From the NCBI RefSeq assembly GCF_004145405.1, contig NZ_SELQ01000007.1, positions 62,001 to 126,000 on the forward strand: a stretch of DNA of 64,000 nucleotides. Reading direction: 5' to 3'. Source of the stretch: Salipiger sp. IMCC34102 (GTDB taxonomy: Bacteria > Pseudomonadota > Alphaproteobacteria > Rhodobacterales > Rhodobacteraceae). The notes under the pieces were generated by a model, which was not told where the DNA came from, ran no database searches, and saw only the letters and a program-made list of their open reading frames with translations. The position numbers and the translations under genes are program-made. Positions 55,540 to 63,632 of this stretch are shown piece by piece. Positions within the stretch are counted from its first letter, which is position 1. Each line of letters starts with the position of its first letter.

Positions 55540-56571
55540 TTACCCGAGCTGGCCGAGGTCGATATCGGCCCAGATGCGGGTGCCGCCATCGGGGCGCGCC
55601 TCGGTCCGGACCTTGCAGTCCAGGCTGATGGCCACCTGGCGGACGATCCGGCTGCCCAGCCCGCCACCGTCGGGCCAGTCGATCCCCTCCGGCAGGCCAA
55701 GGCCGTCGTCGCTGACCTCGATCCGCAACGTATCGTCGTCCCGCATTTCCATCGTCAGATCGACCGTGCCCGTCTCCCGCCCCGTGAAGGCGTGTTTGAG
55801 CGCATTGGTCAGGATTTCCGAGACCAGGAACCCGATCTGCGTCGCGATTTCGGGCGAGGCTTCGCAAGACACGGTCTGGACATTGACCCGGATCCCCTGG
55901 CGTCCGTCCAGGTGTCCGATGGTGCTGGCGACCCGGCTGACGTAGGCGCCCAATGCGACGTTGGCGTCGCCGTTGTCGCGCCCCGACATCTCCTCGTAGA
56001 GAAGCTGCAACGTCTCGATCCGGCGCGAAAGGGTGCCGAAGTCCGCCTGCGGAGATTCCTCGCGGGCCTGCAGGCGGATCATGCTGACGATCATGGACAG
56101 GTGATTCTTGACCCGGTGCTGCAACTCGCGCAACGCGACTAGGGTTTCCTCCCGCTCGGGGTTGGGTTTCTTGCCCCCGCCGCCGATCCGCTTCTGGATA
56201 CCGATGAAGTAGGATACGTTTCCCTCGTCATCCGTCAGCGGCGACAGCACCAGCCGATTCCAGAAGGCCTCCCCGTCGGCGCGGTAGTTCAGAAGGTCGA
56301 CCGACAGCTCCTTGCTGTTGTCGACCGCGTCGCGGATCAGGCGCACCGCTTCGGGATCGGTATCGGCGCCTTGCAGGAAACGGCAGTTCCGCCCGATCGC
56401 GGCGGCACGGGAATAGCCCGTGATCCGCTCGAACGCGGTGTTGAGGTAGATGATCGGGTTGTCGGGAAGATTCGGATTGGTCAGCACGACGGCCACGTCA
56501 TCGCCCATCGAGCGTGCCATGTTCTCCGCCTCGGTCATCGAGCCTTCAATAGTCGAACCGGCTTCGTTCAT
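55540..56571 (-). CDS. LOV-domain (blue-light) HWE/HisKA_2-type sensor histidine kinase
   Basis: A 343-residue soluble sensor kinase. The PAS/LOV domain shows AAAIGRNCRFLQGADTD, with the photoactive Cys at about residue 63 in the GxNCRFLQ flavin motif, followed by LNYRADGEAFWNRLVLSPL and VSYFIGIQKRI. The kinase module has LRELQHRVKNHLSMIVSMI (phosphoacceptor His of the HisKA_2 class) and ATPase motifs LTNALKHAFTG, SDDGLGLPEG and GGGLGSRIVRQ. ATG 56571 (MNEAGSTIEG) has GAGG six bases upstream; ATG 56583 is an alternative giving four more residues. No response regulator is adjacent. Confidence 0.92.
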   Translation of the reverse strand: MNEAGSTIEGSMTEAENMARSMGDDVAVVLTNPNLPDNPIIYLNTAFERITGYSRAAAIGRNCRFLQGADTDPEAVRLIRDAVDNSKELSVDLLNYRADGEAFWNRLVLSPLTDDEGNVSYFIGIQKRIGGGGKKPNPEREETLVALRELQHRVKNHLSMIVSMIRLQAREESPQADFGTLSRRIETLQLLYEEMSGRDNGDANVALGAYVSRVASTIGHLDGRQGIRVNVQTVSCEASPEIATQIGFLVSEILTNALKHAFTGRETGTVDLTMEMRDDDTLRIEVSDDGLGLPEGIDWPDGGGLGSRIVRQVAISLDCKVRTEARPDGGTRIWADIDLGQLG

Positions 56572-56697
56572 CCCGAACCTCATACTCTAACGAATGCGTC
56601 AGATGACATATCGTCGCGCGGGTGGCCACCGCCCGTAACGCGACACGATGTCCCGCTAGGTAAACACTGAATGAAGACTATCCTAGATCAAACCAGA

Positions 56698-57198
56698 TCA
56701 GGCGTCACGTTTCAGGCGCGCCTCCAGCACGTCGAAGGGCACGCCCGGTTCATCCTTCGCGCCCCGGATCACCAGCGAGGTCTTCACGCTCGCCACGTTG
56801 GGCGCGCTGGTCAACTCCTCCGTCAGGAAGCGCTGGAAGGTCCGCAGATCGGGGGCCACGCACTTGAGGATGAAATCCACCTCGCCGTTGAGCATGTGGC
56901 ACTCGCGCACCAGCGGCCAGCCTTCGCAGCGCGCCTCGAAGGCGGCGAGGTCCGCTTCCGCCTGGCTTTGCAGCCCGACCATGGCGAAGACCTGGACCTC
57001 GAACCCCAGTTCGCGCGGGTCGACGTCCGCGTGATAGCCGCGGATGTAGCCCTGCTCTTCCAGCGTGCGCACCCGGCGCAGGCACGGCGGCGCGCTGATG
57101 CCCACCCGCTTGGCCAGTTCGACGTTGGTCATCCGCCCGTCGGCCTGCAGTTGCGCCAGAATCATCCGGTCGATCTCGTCCAGCTTTGCACCGGGCAT
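56698..57198 (-). CDS. Lrp/AsnC-family transcriptional regulator
   Basis: A 166-residue regulator. An N-terminal winged HTH ([20 protein letters not shown] then [19 protein letters not shown]) is followed by the RAM ligand-binding domain ([20 protein letters not shown] and C-terminal [11 protein letters not shown]). It is divergent from trxB with 152 bases between starts. That region holds two direct repeats TGCGCAAC spaced 21 bases, consistent with a site for a dimeric or octameric Lrp protein. Target and effector unknown. ATG 57198. Confidence 0.92.
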
Positions 57199-57247
57199 TC
57201 GGGTTTTCTCCAAAGGTTTCGTATTTTCCTACGCCAACCCGCCAGCC

Positions 57248-57277
57248 TGCGCAACAATGTTTCACACTTGCGCAACT
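57248..57277 (+). promoter_or_regulatory. Candidate Lrp-type operator between the regulator and trxB
   Basis: Direct repeats TGCGCAAC at 57248 and 57269, 21 bases apart, about two helical turns. TTTC and CGAAAC lie 3' of them, suggesting repeated half-sites in the intergenic region. Confidence 0.45.
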
Positions 57278-57350
57278 ATGCGAAACGCGTTCCGCCTTTC
57301 GCCAGGCCGCGCCAGCCCCTATATCGGTGCCCACCAGACAAGAGGCCCCC

Positions 57351-58352
57351 ATGTCCCAGACCCGTCACACCCGGCTGCTCATCGTCGGTTCCGGCCCCGC
57401 CGGTTACTCCGCCGGCGTCTATGCCGCCCGCGCCATGCTGGAACCGATGCTGATCCAGGGGATCGAGCCCGGCGGCCAGCTGACCACCACCACCGAAGTC
57501 GAGAACTGGCCCGGCGACACCGAGGTGCAGGGCCCCGACCTGATGGTCCGGATGGAGACCCACGCCCGCGCCATGGGCACCGAGATCGTGCATGACATCG
57601 TCTCGGACCTGGACCTGTCGAAACGCCCCTTTACCGCCACCTGCGACAGCGGTGCCGTCGTCACCGCCGACGCCGTGATCCTCGCGACCGGCGCCCGCGC
57701 CAAGTGGCTGGGCCTGCCGTCGGAAGAGGCGTTCAAGGGGTTCGGCGTCTCGGCTTGCGCCACCTGCGACGGCTTCTTCTATCGCGGGCAGGAGATCGTC
57801 GTCGTGGGCGGCGGCAATACGGCGGTGGAAGAGGCGCTGTTCCTCACCAACTTCGCCTCGAAGGTCACGCTGGTGCACCGCCGCGACGAACTTCGGGCAG
57901 AGGCGATTCTGCAGCAGCGCCTTCTGAAGAACCCCAAGATCGAGACCCTCTGGCACCACGAGATCGACGAGATCCTCGGCACCGACCAGCCCAAGGGCGT
58001 CGAATCGGTCCGGCTCAGGAACGTGCAGACGGGCGAGACGACCGAACTGCCCGCGAAGGGCGTCTTCGTCGCGATCGGTCACGCGCCGGCCTCCGAACTG
58101 GTGAAGGACCAGCTGGAGTTGCACCACGGCGGCTACGTGAAGGTCGAGCCGGGCAGCACCCGCACCGCGATCCCGGGCGTCTTCGCCGCGGGCGATCTGA
58201 CCGACCACGTCTACCGCCAGGCCGTCACCAGCGCGGGCATGGGCTGCATGGCCGCCCTCGACGCCGAACGCTTCCTGGCCGAGCACGACCAGGCCCCCCG
58301 CGACGAGGTCACGCTTCCGCTTGGCTACGGCGCGGAAGAGCCCGCCGAGTAA
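57351..58352 (+). CDS. trxB: Thioredoxin reductase
   Basis: NADPH-dependent FAD enzyme that reduces thioredoxin, 333 residues. It has [20 protein letters not shown] at the FAD site, the redox pair CATCDG at about residues 138-143, the NADPH motif [16 protein letters not shown] near 155, and [20 protein letters not shown] near the C-terminus. ATG 57351. The product would supply the thioredoxin-type proteins. Downstream is a hairpin with an A-rich edge that faces the other strand (58405-58451). Confidence 0.97.
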
Positions 58353-58404
58353 CCCCGACGTGGTCGGTCCCCTGGGGCCGATGCCTTCGGCGGGAGCATT
58401 CTTT

Positions 58405-58451
58405 AAAAAAACGAGGAGGGCCGGTCGCCATGAGGCACCGGCCTTCCCTCG
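58405..58451 (-). terminator. Strong minus-strand hairpin with U7 tract between plus-strand genes
   Basis: GGCCGGT / ACCGGCC core plus outer CGAGG-type pairing, about 14 bp with one bulge, followed on the minus strand by seven U residues (A7 at 58405-58411). No annotated minus-strand gene ends here. Together with copy 5 of repeat family 1 it could form a small RNA. Confidence 0.7.
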
Positions 58452-58469
58452 TTCGAACGAACCCCAGGG

Positions 58470-58515
58470 CTTCTTTGGATTGAAAATACTTGCCCCGCCG
58501 GCGAGGCGTCCCGCA
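58470..58515 (-). repeat. Interspersed repeat, family 1, copy 5
   Basis: Matches copy 2 (16121-16167) almost base for base: CTTCTTTGGATTGAAAATAC then TTGCCCCGCCGGCGAGGCGT on the plus strand. It stands between trxB and the HTH-Sat-CysC gene. Confidence 0.85.
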
Positions 58516-58593
58516 CCCTCCACCCGCGGGGCGCCGCCCGCTGACGCGCCGAGTGTCGCAAATTTGCCGATAGTCCGCCTCGGGCAAAGTTTG

Positions 58594-58645
58594 TTCTTTC
58601 GTGAACAGACTTTTTGGGCCAAGCAGCGTTCACGCTTGAACAGAC
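58594..58645 (+). promoter_or_regulatory. Two tandem dyad-like boxes upstream of the HTH-Sat-CysC gene
   Basis: Box 1 (58594-58610) TTCTTTCGTGAACAGAC and box 2 (58629-58645) TTCACGCTTGAACAGAC match at 13 of 17 positions. Each has TTC and GAA arms, and their starts are 35 bases apart. CGTGAAC (58600-58606) and GTTCACG (58628-58634) also pair as an inverted repeat. They end 40 bases before ATG 58686. Confidence 0.45.
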
Positions 58646-58685
58646 CCGAATCGCCGTACCCGTGACCTTTTCGAAACCCGCCCCC

Positions 58686-60737
58686 ATGACCGATGCCGAA
58701 GAGCGGCTCTTTCGCCTGCTCCGCCAGCTCGACCGGTCGCCATCCGCCAGCCAGCGCGAAACGGCGGCGGCGGTGGGCGTGTCGCTGGGTCGGCTCAACG
58801 CGCAGATCAAGCAGGCCATCGCGGACGGCTTCGTCAGCCTGTCCGACCGGACCGGCGCCGACCGGCGCAGCCGGGTGGCCTATGCGCTGACCCACAAGGG
58901 GGCCGCGTTGAAGGCGCGCCTCAGCGACCGTTTCCTCGCGCGCAAGTTCGCGGAATACCAGACCCTCCACGCAGAGCTGACCGGACCCGCCGGCGGCACC
59001 TATTCCACCCTCAACAGGATCTCTCCCATGGAAAACAACCTCGCCCCGATCCCGGAGCTCTACGTCAGCCACGACAGCGCGCAGAAGATGAAGCACGACG
59101 CAGGCGAGCTCGTCAGCCACGACCTGACCCCGCGCCAGATCTGCGACCTCGAACTGCTGATGAACGGCGGCTTCAACCCGCTGAAGGGCTTTCTGTCCGA
59201 GAAGGACTACGACGGCGTGGTCGAGAACATGCGCCTCGCCGACGGCACCCTGTGGCCCATGCCCATCACGCTCGACGTCTCCGAGGACTTCGCGGCCGGC
59301 ATCGAGACCGGCCAGGACATCGCCCTGCGCGACCAGGAAGGCGTGATCCTCGCCACCATGACCGTCACCGACAAGTGGGAGCCCAACAAGGCCCGCGAGG
59401 CCGAGAAGGTCTTCGGCGCCGACGACGACGCGCACCCGGCGGTGAACTACCTGCACAACCAGGCGGGCAAGATCTACCTCGGCGGTCCCGTGACCGGCAT
59501 CCAGCAGCCCGTGCACTACGACTTCCGCGCCCGCCGCGACACGCCCAACGAGCTGCGCGCTTACTTCCGCAAGCTGGGCTGGCGCAAGGTCGTGGCGTTC
59601 CAGACCCGCAATCCCCTGCACCGCGCCCACCAGGAGCTGACCTTCCGCGCCGCCAAGGAAGCGCAGGCCAACCTGCTGATCCACCCCGTCGTCGGCCTGA
59701 CGAAGCCCGGCGATGTCGATCACTTCACCCGCGTGCGCTGCTACGAGGCGGTCCTCGACCAATACCAGCCCTCCACCACCACCATGTCCCTGCTGAACCT
59801 CGCCATGCGCATGGCCGGCCCGCGCGAGGCGGTCTGGCACGGACTGATCCGCCGCAACCACGGCTGCACCCACTTCATCGTCGGCCGCGACCACGCCGGC
59901 CCGGGCAAGAACTCCGCCGGTGAGGACTTCTACGGCCCCTACGATGCGCAGGACCTCTTCCGCGAGCACCAGGAAGAGATGGGCATCGAGATGGTGGACT
60001 TCAAACACATGGTCTACGTCCAGGAACGCGCCCAGTACGAGCCCGCCGACGAGATCGCGGACAAGGACGAGGTCACGATCCTGAACATCTCGGGCACCGA
60101 ACTGCGCCGCCGTCTGCAGGAGGGGCTGGAGATCCCCGAATGGTTCTCCTTCCCGCAGGTCGTCGAAGAGCTGCGCCGCACCAAGCCCGCGCGCTCCAAG
60201 CAAGGCTTCACCGTGTTCTTCACCGGCTACTCCGGCTCGGGCAAGTCCACCATCGCCAACGCCCTGATGGTGAAGCTGATGGAAATGGGCGGCCGTCCCG
60301 TGACGCTGCTGGACGGTGACATCGTGCGCAAGAACCTCAGCTCGGAGCTGGGCTTCTCGAAGGAGCACCGCGACCTGAACATCCGCCGGATCGGCTACGT
60401 CGCCTCCGAGATCACCAAGAACGGCGGCATCGCGATCTGCGCGCCCATCGCGCCCTACGCCACCACCCGCCGCGCCGTGCGGCAGGACATCGAAGACTTC
60501 GGCGCCTTCATCGAGGTCCACGTCGCGACCTCTCTGGAGGAATGCGAGCGCCGCGACCGCAAGGGGCTCTACAAGCTGGCCCGTGAAGGCAAGATCAAGG
60601 AATTCACCGGAATTTCGGACCCCTACGACGCCCCCGTAAATCCCGAACTGCGCGTGGACACCGAAGGCCAGGAGGTGGACAATTGCGCCCACCAGGTGAT
60701 CCTCAAGCTCGAAGCGATGGGCCTCATCAAGGCCTGA
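58686..60737 (+). CDS. sat: MarR-type HTH domain fused in frame to ATP sulfurylase / APS kinase
   Basis: Sulfate activation: ATP sulfurylase makes APS and the kinase makes PAPS. The open frame encodes 683 residues without a stop. Residues 1-114 resemble the EPS-associated MarR regulators (winged HTH SQRETAAAVGVSLGRLNAQI, then ALTHKGAALKARLSDRFLAR). From residue 115 (ATG 59028, MENNLAPIPELYVSHDSAQK) comes a normal-length 569-residue Sat-CysC. It has QTRNPLHRAHQELTFRAAKE, HFIVGRDHAGPG, and APS-kinase P-loop FTGYSGSGKSTIANAL near 514-522, with DGDIVRKNLSSELGFSKEHR. An AGGATCTCTCCC site before 59028 could allow the enzyme alone to be made. Confidence 0.85.
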   Translation: MTDAEERLFRLLRQLDRSPSASQRETAAAVGVSLGRLNAQIKQAIADGFVSLSDRTGADRRSRVAYALTHKGAALKARLSDRFLARKFAEYQTLHAELTGPAGGTYSTLNRISPMENNLAPIPELYVSHDSAQKMKHDAGELVSHDLTPRQICDLELLMNGGFNPLKGFLSEKDYDGVVENMRLADGTLWPMPITLDVSEDFAAGIETGQDIALRDQEGVILATMTVTDKWEPNKAREAEKVFGADDDAHPAVNYLHNQAGKIYLGGPVTGIQQPVHYDFRARRDTPNELRAYFRKLGWRKVVAFQTRNPLHRAHQELTFRAAKEAQANLLIHPVVGLTKPGDVDHFTRVRCYEAVLDQYQPSTTTMSLLNLAMRMAGPREAVWHGLIRRNHGCTHFIVGRDHAGPGKNSAGEDFYGPYDAQDLFREHQEEMGIEMVDFKHMVYVQERAQYEPADEIADKDEVTILNISGTELRRRLQEGLEIPEWFSFPQVVEELRRTKPARSKQGFTVFFTGYSGSGKSTIANALMVKLMEMGGRPVTLLDGDIVRKNLSSELGFSKEHRDLNIRRIGYVASEITKNGGIAICAPIAPYATTRRAVRQDIEDFGAFIEVHVATSLEECERRDRKGLYKLAREGKIKEFTGISDPYDAPVNPELRVDTEGQEVDNCAHQVILKLEAMGLIKA

Positions 60738-60759
60738 GGGCCTGCATCGGGAACCGCAG

Positions 60760-60788
60760 AAAAGGCCGGGCCCCGCGCCCGGCCTTTT
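60760..60788 (+). terminator. Rho-independent terminator after sat
   Basis: Perfect 11-bp stem AAAAGGCCGGG / CCCGGCCTTTT, seven-base loop, after the sat stop. The T-run is in the stem end; it is symmetrical, so it works in both directions. Confidence 0.9.
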
Positions 60789-60966
60789 CGCGTGGCACTT
60801 TGCGGCGCGACATCCGGCGCGGGCAGGTCTGGCAGTGCTTTGCAACCTTAGGTAAATGGTGCCTTAATAGGGCCGCGCTTCAGGCCGCATTCTGACGCCA
60901 TCCCCTGCGATACGGACCGGTGGCGGGGCCTGTCCTGCCGCAACGCGATCCGATCGGAGACCACTC

Positions 60967-61920
60967 ATGCGGATTCTTGCCGTCGACGACGATCCGATCA
61001 TCCTCGAGCTTCTGGCCTCGCCGATGTATCTGGGATCGGACCACGACGTGACCTGTGCCGGCTCCGCCGCCGAGGCGGTCGACGAGCTCGACGCGACCGA
61101 AGCCACCTTCGATTCGATCCTGCTCGATATCGACATGCCGGTGCGCAACGGCATCGACCTCTGCGCGGAGATCCGGCAAAGGCCGCCCTACGCCACGACC
61201 CCGATCCTGATGATCACCGCCACGCGCGAGGCAGAGACGATGCAGCGCGCCTATTCGGCCGGTGCGACCGATTTCATCTCCAAGCCGCTGGACGGGGTCG
61301 AGGTGGGCGCGCGTATCTCGCTTGCGACCATGCTGAACGACAGTCTCGCCCGCGAGCGCCAGATGCGCGCCGCCTTCGACCGGCTACAGAAATACGTGGC
61401 CGCGGGCTTCGATCACCGCACGGCCTCCGTCCAAGCCGGCCCGCTGGCGCTGATGGCGCTGCAGAACCGCCTGCTGCATCTCGAACCGGGGGTGCATGCG
61501 CTGTCGATGTTCAGCGTTCATTTCGCAGCCCTCGCGGAGTTCGAGGAAAGCCCCCAGGGCGGTGATCTTCTGCGTCGGATCGCGCGGATCGGGGCGGCGA
61601 CCACCTCGGTGCTGGCCTACCCCACCTCGACGCTGGCCTACGCCGGGCGCGGCCTGTTCCTGGGCGTGACCTTCGGCCGCCGCCGCGAGGTGCTGGACGT
61701 GGTCCAGAAAAAGGCCGCCGCGGCGATCCGGAAGATGTGGGCCGAACACGACCTGCCCGATCCGGTGCCCGTGCCGGTCTGCGACACGGTGTCGAACATG
61801 GGGGTCTGGACCGGGCGCGACGCCTCGGAAGAGCTGGAAAGCTACGCCTGCCGCACCATCCCCGACTTCACCGCGATCGGCCCCCGCAGGCACGTCGGCG
61901 ACGCGTTCTCGGGCTTCTAA
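60967..61920 (+). CDS. Response regulator with degenerate GGDEF-like C-terminal domain
   Basis: A 317-residue protein. Residues 1-120 are a receiver domain: ILAVDDDPIILELL (acidic pocket), LLDIDMPVRNG (phospho-acceptor Asp), MITAT and ISKPLDG (conserved Lys). The rest (about 150-290) has a layout like a GGDEF domain, FSVHFAALAEFEE then LRRIARIGA and LAYAGRGLFLGVTFG. The signature GG(D/E)EF is replaced by AGRGLF, so diguanylate cyclase activity is unlikely. It may bind c-di-GMP or a partner, or act as a single-domain regulator. No partner kinase adjacent; the LOV kinase is 5 kb away. Confidence 0.75.
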   Translation: MRILAVDDDPIILELLASPMYLGSDHDVTCAGSAAEAVDELDATEATFDSILLDIDMPVRNGIDLCAEIRQRPPYATTPILMITATREAETMQRAYSAGATDFISKPLDGVEVGARISLATMLNDSLARERQMRAAFDRLQKYVAAGFDHRTASVQAGPLALMALQNRLLHLEPGVHALSMFSVHFAALAEFEESPQGGDLLRRIARIGAATTSVLAYPTSTLAYAGRGLFLGVTFGRRREVLDVVQKKAAAAIRKMWAEHDLPDPVPVPVCDTVSNMGVWTGRDASEELESYACRTIPDFTAIGPRRHVGDAFSGF

Positions 61921-61932
61921 ATCCTTCGAAGA

Positions 61933-61970
61933 CGACAAGACCCGGATCACGCGGGATCCGGGTCTTGTCG
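61933..61970. terminator. Perfect 16-bp hairpin downstream of the response regulator
   Basis: CGACAAGACCCGGATC / GATCCGGGTCTTGTCG with a six-base loop and no pure U-run (TTCTTGG follows). Likely a bidirectional terminator between the response regulator and the convergent DUF1150 gene. Confidence 0.65.
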
Positions 61971-62006
61971 TTCTTGGTCGCCAGGCCGAACCGATCACGT
62001 GAAGGA

Positions 62007-62231
62007 TCAGTGCAGGGCCACCAGCTGCATGTGGTGTTCGTCCGCCAGGTGGCTCGCCAGGCCTTCGCTCGCGACCAGCGCGACTTGCTCACCCTTGGTG
62101 TTGTGCACGGCGAACAGCGTCTCGAGCTCGCCCGCCTGCTCGCGCACCTCGTCCGGAAGATCGGAGGTCGCGACCGGCTTGAGATACACGATGTTCTGGC
62201 CCAGATCGGCAAAATCTTTCTTCGTAAACAT
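62007..62231 (-). CDS. DUF1150 family protein
   Basis: A 74-residue soluble protein, MFTKKDFADLGQNIVYLKPV, with the DUF1150 layout; the family is known next to hsp20 genes in alphaproteobacteria. The gene starts three bases after the hsp20 stop, so it is co-transcribed, and its function is probably heat-stress related, though undefined. ATG 62231. Confidence 0.85.
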   Translation of the reverse strand: MFTKKDFADLGQNIVYLKPVATSDLPDEVREQAGELETLFAVHNTKGEQVALVASEGLASHLADEHHMQLVALH

Positions 62232-62234
62232 GCT

Positions 62235-62648
62235 CTACCCTTTCGAGATCTCTATGTTCTTCACAACGCGTTCGGCCGGTCTGCGGTTCAGATCGATGTG
62301 CAGAAGCCCGTTTTCCATGCTCGCCTTCCCCACTTCGACCCCGTCGGCCAGCACGAAGGCGCGCTGGAAGGGCCGGCCCGCGATGCCGCGGTGCAGATAC
62401 TCCCGCTCGGGGGTGTCGGTGGGCAGACGGCCGCGCACGGTCAGCGTCGAGTCCTCGACCGTGATCGACAGGTCCGGCGCACCGAACCCCGCCACCGCCA
62501 GCGTCACGCGGTAGCTGCCCTTCGAGGTCTGCTCGATGTTGTAGGGGGGATATCCGTCGGTTCCGGTCTTGGCGGTGCGTTCGACCAGGCGTTCCAGCCC
62601 GTCGAAGCCCAGCAGGAACGGATGGGTCCCCAAAGCCATTTTCGTCAT
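62235..62648 (-). CDS. Small heat-shock protein (Hsp20/IbpA type)
   Basis: A 137-residue alpha-crystallin-domain chaperone that holds unfolding proteins. It has YPPYNIEQTSKGSYRVTLAV at the domain start and RGRLPTDTPEREYLHRGIAG; the domain ends with LHIDLNRRPAERVV. ATG 62648 (MTKMALG) has AAGGA nine bases upstream; the longer frame adds 19 residues and is less likely. Probably RpoH-controlled (rpoH is in the window), but I see no clear sigma-32 promoter. Confidence 0.95.
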   Translation of the reverse strand: MTKMALGTHPFLLGFDGLERLVERTAKTGTDGYPPYNIEQTSKGSYRVTLAVAGFGAPDLSITVEDSTLTVRGRLPTDTPEREYLHRGIAGRPFQRAFVLADGVEVGKASMENGLLHIDLNRRPAERVVKNIEISKG

Positions 62649-62799
62649 GCGACACGTCCTTGTTTCAAGCGACATAGCCAATGCGGCCCCGCTTTCGGCG
62701 ACCACACCGGAAATATGGGGGTGCGGGCGGCGTCGCGCAAGAGCCTAGGCGCAGGTCCCGAAACCCTGTAAGAGACCCTCGATCCCAAGGTTTGGTGCC

Positions 62800-63018
62800 A
62801 TGAATTCCTCCCCGCAACTGTCCGACATCGAAGTGCTCACGATCGAATTGCGCGTGCTGCGGCAGGAACATCACGACCTCGACCTGGCGATCACAGCCCT
62901 GCAGATGACCCATCCCGGCGACGTGCTGACGATCAGCCGGCTCAAGCGCAAGAAGCTGGGGCTGAAGGACCGCATCGCCCGGATCGAGGATACGGTGAAC
63001 CCCGACATCATCGCCTGA
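62800..63018 (+). CDS. DUF465 (YdcH-like) small helical protein
   Basis: A 72-residue protein, [20 protein letters not shown], with [12 protein letters not shown], then [17 protein letters not shown]. The central H-x-x-L-D-xx-I and the basic C-terminal L-K-x-x-K-L-x-L-K-D motif are DUF465 hallmarks. Function unknown; divergent from hsp20. AAGG upstream of ATG 62800. Confidence 0.85.
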
Positions 63019-63143
63019 CACCGCGCGGCGCCCGGCCTTTCGAGCCGCGCCGCCCCGATCGACTCGTCCCCGCAAGCACCGCGGCGCCTTGCCCCCGCGC
63101 CGCCCGCCCCTATAGTGCCGCGCGCAACCGTTCGGAGCGTGCG

Positions 63144-63632
63144 ATGCCTGATCCCCTCGTCGGCCTCATCATGGGCAGCCAGTCCGACTGGCCCACCATG
63201 CGCGAGGCCGCCCAAATCCTGGACACCCTGGGCATCCCCCATGAGCCGCGCATCGTCTCGGCCCACCGCACGCCGGACCGGCTGTGGGACTACGGCAAGA
63301 CCGCCGTCGAACGCGGGCTGCAGGTCATCATCGCGGGCGCGGGCGGGGCCGCCCACCTGCCCGGCATGATGGCCTCCAAGACGCGGGTGCCGGTGATCGG
63401 CGTGCCGATCCAGACCAAGGCGCTGTCGGGCGTCGACAGCCTCTACTCGATCCTGCAGATGCCGCGCGGCTTTCCGGTTGCCACCATGGCCATCGGCGCC
63501 GCCGGGGCGCAGAACGCGGGCCTCATGGCCGCCGGGATCCTCGCCTTGCAGGACCCCGCACTTGCCGCACGTCTCGACCAATGGCGAAGCGATCTCGCCG
63601 CCTCCATCCCTGAGGTGCCCGAAGATGACTGA
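63144..63632 (+). CDS. purE: 5-(carboxyamino)imidazole ribonucleotide mutase
   Basis: Converts N5-CAIR to CAIR in purine synthesis, 162 residues. The N-terminal [12 protein letters not shown] is the phosphate/nucleotide site, [13 protein letters not shown] has the catalytic histidine, [15 protein letters not shown] and [17 protein letters not shown] complete the family. The stop overlaps purK by 8 bases, so PurE and PurK are made together. Confidence 0.97.

Follow-up and report, generated by a model that had tools for sequence, protein, structure and literature searches.

The fused reading frame

In the window (the whole 64-kb stretch of DNA analysed here), an open reading frame on the + strand extends from before position 58614 through a stop codon at 60735-60737. 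Based on profile matches and a predicted fold, this frame joins a winged helix to a complete Sat-CysC enzyme, as proposed in an earlier note made from the sequence alone. The features of the locus are the following:

58593..58606, + strand: distal palindrome GTTC-N6-GAAC, second putative operator copy
58628..58641, + strand: proximal palindrome GTTCACGCTTGAAC, putative operator
58662..59027, + strand: winged-helix (MarR-type) domain and linker of the long form, with a likely GTG start and an alternative ATG at 58686
59016..59019, + strand: internal Shine-Dalgarno AGGA, the first three bases of which are an in-frame AGG (Arg) codon
59028..60737, + strand: Sat-CysC (ATP sulfurylase / APS kinase), with its own ATG at 59028 and stop at 60735-60737
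60764..60788, + strand: likely terminator, a GC-rich inverted repeat followed by TTTT (identified by eye; absent from the list of the computed scan)

Most homologues have their first in-frame start about 16-24 nt past the palindrome, and the equivalent position in the window is GTG 58662; thus, the long protein would have 691 residues (from GTG 58662) or 683 residues (from ATG 58686). Residue numbers given here for the window are counted from ATG 58686.

The Pfam profiles matched by the window protein are HTH_24 (residues 7-50), followed by PUA_2, ATP-sulfurylase and APS_kinase. The NCBIfam profile NF004040 (Sat/CysC) covers residues 113-682 with 1039 bits, above its curated cut-off of 669. 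For the N-terminal residues, which the earlier note had assigned to the MarR type associated with exopolysaccharides, TIGR04176 (MarR_EPS) matches residues 5-98 (79 bits and E 2e-22 when the domain is taken alone), a score below the curated cut-off of 88 bits. Other fused relatives score up to 98.7 bits on TIGR04176.

A sequence search of solved structures with the first 114 residues produced a single weak match, the MarR regulator CouR (E 0.018). The AlphaFold2 model of residues 1-114 (three sequences) predicts a winged helix of order H-H-H-E-E followed by a long helix at residues 70-99, with a mean pLDDT of 83. A winged helix together with a predicted dimerising helix, the combination that characterises the MarR superfamily, is therefore present in this model. 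With the same model, Foldseek returned 30 matches at E <=0.001, mostly of the MarR family and several of them DNA-bound; the best was 3k0l (E 5e-5, 16% identity), and Sso10a-2 and a pNOB8 plasmid protein were also among the matches. The AlphaFold2 model of the full-length protein (pLDDT 35) was set aside and carries no information on interdomain communication. For the enzyme part, the best solved sequence relatives are the ATP sulfurylases 1i2d and 1m8p, which we take to be the Penicillium enzyme.

A draw of the family (295 genomes, 294 genera) contains at least 57 with the fusion, a lower bound with matches listed down to approximately 1133 bits, and the full-length fusion is present in 10 of 61 genomes (the window's own and 60 relatives). 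Two named records, Loktanella atrilutea DSM 29326 and Oceanicola sp. 22II-s10i, match the helix, and both translate through the enzyme. In a draw of genomes from the phylum, 38 of 398 have a TIGR04176 match (E <=1e-15); the 15 matches from the window's family lie in open frames of 690-710 residues, and all others lie in frames of 85-345 residues. Among the matches listed in a search of open-licence papers, the titles and abstract openings contain no report of such a fusion.

Our set of 62 fused loci consists of the 57 from the family survey, four from genomes of the same genus and one further locus (L033). Helix domain and enzyme share one frame, uninterrupted by a stop, at every one of these loci, and the enzyme frame has 567-572 residues. 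The chance that a missed stop or a frameshift has artificially joined two separate genes, a check called for by the earlier note, is therefore negligible, and this explanation is refuted at the sequence level. Nothing was found in its favour; an inner TAG in one genome (G268) proved to be the terminal stop codon of the gene itself, through which the alignment had continued. The sulfurylase motifs QTRNPLHRAHQEL, GRDHAGPG and [DE]GDx[VI]R, as well as the P-loop TG[FLY]SGSGKST, all of which we assumed to be diagnostic, are present in 62/62 loci, and the exact sequence NISGTELRRRL in 53/62. The SLGxxN motif of the helix domain is likewise kept in 62/62. Of 1134 close pairs, dN/dS was computable in 1061 for the helix domain, in 996 for the linker and in all 1134 for Sat, with medians of 0.20, 0.52 and 0.13, respectively; the value for the helix domain indicates that it is kept as a protein.

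The spread of the fusion is patchy. On a Sat-CysC tree of 118 rows, which is weakly resolved and from which L030 was dropped, the fusion pattern requires 32 changes, at least 11 of them on well-supported branches. Because the helix, the linker and the internal start are alike across all fused loci, we infer a single fusion event that was followed by many losses or exchanges.

Six neighbouring genes were scanned (55543-63629); they encode an Lrp/AsnC regulator, a pyridine nucleotide-disulphide oxidoreductase (TrxB-like), a response regulator, an Hsp20 protein, an AIR carboxylase and a PAS histidine kinase, with no exopolysaccharide genes among them. Together with the score below the MarR_EPS cut-off and the lack of the palindrome at most stand-alone MarR_EPS loci (see below), this setting gives no support to the link to exopolysaccharides that had been suggested for the regulator. 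A further GC-rich inverted repeat, probably a terminator, was seen by eye at 58405-58455, in the stretch that separates the fusion from the TrxB-like gene; weak sub-threshold Rfam matches, e.g., ar35, overlap it.

Based on searches for the fusion enzyme and for the PAPS_reduct family, the fusion appears to be the sole ATP sulfurylase of its genome: there is one full match, and two genes of the PAPS_reduct family are CysH-like and not CysD. Both CysH-like reductases, L226 (contig C40) and L225 (contig C1), carry a CC...CxxC pattern; by eye, a sulfite-reductase-like ORF adjoins one of them, and transposase-like ORFs are found on both sides of the other. The pattern presumably indicates APS reduction, in which case the kinase would serve sulfation. 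Additionally, the genome has two Sulfotransfer_3 genes, a possible use for PAPS.

A palindrome in the promoter of the fused genes

The first 11 fused loci compared have in common the palindrome GTTC-N6-GAAC, most often GTTCA-N4-TGAAC. The exact GTTCN6GAAC is located 33-73 bp upstream of the helix domain in all 61 testable fused loci, with a proximal-site consensus of approximately ATGYGTTCANNCGTGAACACAC. The 62nd locus (L089), the contig of which ends 49 bp upstream, was left out of the site counts; a second contig of this genome, which overlaps that end (G221:C30, judged by eye), carries the palindrome. It is also present in five of five further fused loci outside the 62 (L214, L215, L217, L220 and L222). 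In shuffled 120-bp upstream regions, GTTCN6GAAC occurred in 46 of 12,200. Within 400 bp of unfused sat-cysC genes, it was found in 2/57 loci, at -227 and -266 and with other flanks; these 57 loci are not a random draw, comprising 20 from the relatives search and 37 hand-picked from the listed rows of the family survey, and the 37 include partial matches that reach into the helix region. Correction for descent by 11 independent contrasts, all on supported branches, leaves the association in place: palindrome and fusion change together in 10 and in opposition in none (10 is the value in most random pairings; the mean is 9.9).

One locus (L128, G188:C81:3099-7874) has a sat-cysC gene with remnants of the helix domain out of frame upstream. 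The end of the linker and the AGGA-ATG are intact, and there is no palindrome within 400 bp upstream. Apparently, this locus represents a recent loss of the regulator or a loss in progress.

Relative to the proximal palindrome, positions -29 to -26 of the fused loci hold a CTTT element and positions -8 to -3 a TGnnAT hexamer, an arrangement that reads as a promoter with its transcription start inside the palindrome. In the window, the -10-like hexamer is degenerate. A second, upstream copy of the palindrome is present in 18 of the 61 fused loci, including the window, at a spacing of 29-35 or 47-49 bp; in the window, this distal copy overlaps the -35 region. GTTCN6GAAC occurs 4 times in the 64-kb window, compared with 0.7 expected, and two of the 4 are those at the fusion promoter.

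An RNA element in place of an operator was also considered and rejected. All five Rfam matches in 58300-59100 are under their gathering scores, and the outer columns of the palindrome do not covary, positions -1/+14 being C/A in 33 of 61 sites and T/A in 25.

The stricter pattern TNYGTTCN5TGAACRNA was matched in 57/61 fused genomes. Away from the fusion promoter, it was found at 11 places in the 61 fused genomes and at 21 places (20 genomes) in 61 unfused ones. Such sites are no commoner in fused than in unfused genomes; there is thus no sign of a wider regulon, and the site appears to be dedicated to its own promoter. In the window's own genome (G000), the looser pattern GTTCN6GAACA has 17 + 22 matches, versus 7 + 8 for the reversed pattern (39 vs 15, approximately 2.6 times), mostly away from the fusion promoter.

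One of the 21 places with the stricter pattern in unfused genomes lies upstream of a stand-alone MarR_EPS homologue (L095, G022:C1, about 565156), in a genome with an unfused sat-cysC; here the palindrome stands 80 bp ahead of the region matching the helix, which suggests that such helices can recognise the sequence. The three other stand-alone homologues of this set of 4 lack the palindrome. Of 24 stand-alone MarR_EPS matches from the phylum, 18 were sampled, one of which (L213) lies at a contig end and was left out; GTTCN6GAAC was present in 1 of the remaining 17, with other flanks. Two further palindrome matches in unfused genomes (G244 and G123) have no adjoining helix homologue.

An internal start within the fused frame

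The native start codon of Sat is retained in the fused genes, as ATG in 60/62 loci (in one of them shifted by a codon) and as GTG in 2/62. Four codons before this start, 60/62 loci have an AGG codon, which is always followed by A and thus gives an AGGA eight bases before the start. The exceptions are L099, in which the AGG is shifted along with its ATG, and L117, which has CGG. The amino acids of the linker vary, whereas the AGG codon does not. Chance codon use was rejected as the reason for this AGG, given that only 27 of 3,242 other Arg codons (0.8%) in the same gene stretch are AGG (binomial p 3e-122, a value that ignores relatedness). The codon may conceivably also have a role in pausing.

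A tetramer resembling a Shine-Dalgarno sequence (AGGA, GGAG or GAGG) precedes 61/62 internal starts, compared with 36/904 other in-frame ATGs. The same tetramers were found at 5/56 starts of unfused genes, which do not necessarily lack a Shine-Dalgarno sequence, since GAGAG-type signals are missed by this test. Predicted ribosome pairing is stronger at the internal start (mean -4.6 kcal/mol) than at the first possible start of the long form (mean -2.0 kcal/mol); for the long form of the window, Shine-Dalgarno pairing is nearly absent (+0.1 kcal/mol), whether translation begins at GTG 58662 or at ATG 58686. This difference leads us to infer that the short form is in excess, the long form probably being the scarcer of the two.

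In the window, the ATG at 59028, to which the earlier note drew attention, has its AGGA at 59016-59019, 8 nt upstream. The note's suggestion of two products is likely to be correct, with an internal ATG or GTG in 62/62 loci and an AGGA, by way of the rare AGG codon, in 61/62. Judging from these data, the fusion is almost certainly translated as one protein, and we are highly confident that the internal start is used as well.

Proposed self-regulation and comparison with known systems

We consider it likely that the fusion is a self-regulating, sulfate-activating trigger enzyme that represses its own expression and is made in two sizes. Regulation of the enzyme by itself, raised as a possibility in the earlier note, has become likely, given a palindrome in the promoter that comes and goes with the fusion (61/61 fused versus 2/57 unfused loci; 10/11 contrasts). 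In the proposed mechanism, the long form, which comprises the winged helix, the ATP sulfurylase and the APS kinase, would dimerise via the long helix after the wing. It would bind its own promoter at the palindrome, which directly follows the apparent -10 element, and would thereby block transcription. Binding of the palindrome by the helix domain is very probable, and net repression, suggested by the position of the palindrome directly downstream of the -10-like element, is quite probable. On the same mRNA, ribosomes would also start at the internal AGGA-ATG and produce plain Sat-CysC; the long form would be the minority, and both forms may share oligomers.

By these means, the level of the enzyme or its ligand state (APS, PAPS or ATP occupancy) could feed back on its own synthesis. 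Whether the state of the enzyme is sensed through the fusion is, in our judgement, evenly balanced. PAPS would be the natural candidate signal by analogy with the fungal enzyme, in which a PAPS-binding, kinase-like domain is the allosteric switch. Only tentatively do we propose a more specific arrangement, in which APS/PAPS occupancy would act on a fused winged helix with no target other than its own promoter, the loop gain being set by an internal ribosome site in the linker codons, with excess plain subunits assembling with the few DNA-binding ones; this would be the first sulfate-activation trigger enzyme.

A simpler possibility is that the helix domain autoregulates the amount of protein only, through concentration-dependent repression, with no metabolite sensing by the enzyme. 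Such a circuit would explain the palindrome and the internal-start data without a ligand and agrees with a site that appears to be dedicated to its own promoter. Nevertheless, a free-standing repressor would suffice for this purpose, and a joined enzyme with intact motifs suggests that the enzyme state matters; on this argument, we regard regulation of the amount alone as rather unlikely. It is improbable that the long form is an activator, or works with other factors, instead of being a repressor. The distal copy, present in 18/61 loci, is close to the -35 region, a position also used by activators, but the invariably present copy directly follows the -10-like hexamer and covers the point at which transcription is expected to begin, as is usual for a repressor site.

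It is very improbable that another regulator binds the palindrome, its link to the fusion being inherited baggage and the helix domain vestigial. Although the stand-alone relatives are mostly without the site and the domain of the window is below the family cut-off, the helix domain is under purifying selection with SLGxxN in every fused locus, site and domain are present or absent together in 10 of the 11 independent contrasts, and L128, where the helix region is degraded, also lacks the site in the 400 bp upstream.

To our knowledge, little is known about the control of sulfate activation in many alphaproteobacteria. Here, enzyme, putative sensor and putative operator together form a 2-kb unit amenable to testing in a single experimental series. 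If the proposed mechanism is correct, the entry step of sulfate assimilation would join the short list of trigger enzymes, and the locus would be a clear case of a single frame encoding a regulator-enzyme and a plain enzyme via an internal start kept by a rare codon. An annotation picking the internal ATG would overlook the regulator.

The stand-alone MarR_EPS regulators (TIGR04176) have a winged helix homologous to that of the fusion; however, they are separate, mostly short proteins, and most of those tested lack the palindrome. The bifunctional bacterial Sat/APS kinase (2gks; NF004040) has the same enzyme architecture as the fusion past residue 113 but no winged helix, and the unfused relatives are without a promoter palindrome (a distant match in 2/57). 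The Penicillium ATP sulfurylase, the closest solved relative of the enzyme part, has a C-terminal APS-kinase-like domain; in contrast to the fusion, in which the P-loop is intact, this domain is without kinase activity, and the protein has no DNA-binding domain. According to excerpts of PMC3734648, allosteric control of the fungal enzyme resides in this C-terminal domain, to which PAPS binds. Another sulfate-assimilation enzyme, the PAPS reductase A of Tuber melanosporum, is reported in excerpts of PMC4848566 to act in transcription; it differs from the fusion in its activator function, which involves a C-terminal peptide, and in being fungal. The excerpted text of PMC5343134, on proteobacterial regulons, contains no matching regulator.

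By its sequence, the fusion has the feature that identifies trigger enzymes of this kind, an intact enzyme joined to a DNA-binding domain. NadR has the order HTH - nucleotidyltransferase - P-loop kinase, analogous to that of the fusion, and the adenylate made by BirA is its own corepressor. We know of no programmed internal start in PutA, BirA or NadR. The Pfam search of the window protein identified ATP-sulfurylase and APS_kinase domains instead of the NMN adenylyltransferase and ribosylnicotinamide kinase domains of the NadR type, which are absent. Like the fusion, PutA, BirA and NadR of E. coli are trigger enzymes with a DNA-binding domain and, based on excerpts of PMC8249747, they are the closest working parallels; PutA and BirA are also treated as trigger enzymes in excerpts of PMC6978683. 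These three are, however, other enzymes of other pathways, and none of them activates sulfate. For PutA, the excerpts of PMC8249747 report that binding is confined to the DNA between putA and putP; it is thus a nearly single-target self-regulator, as we propose for the fusion.
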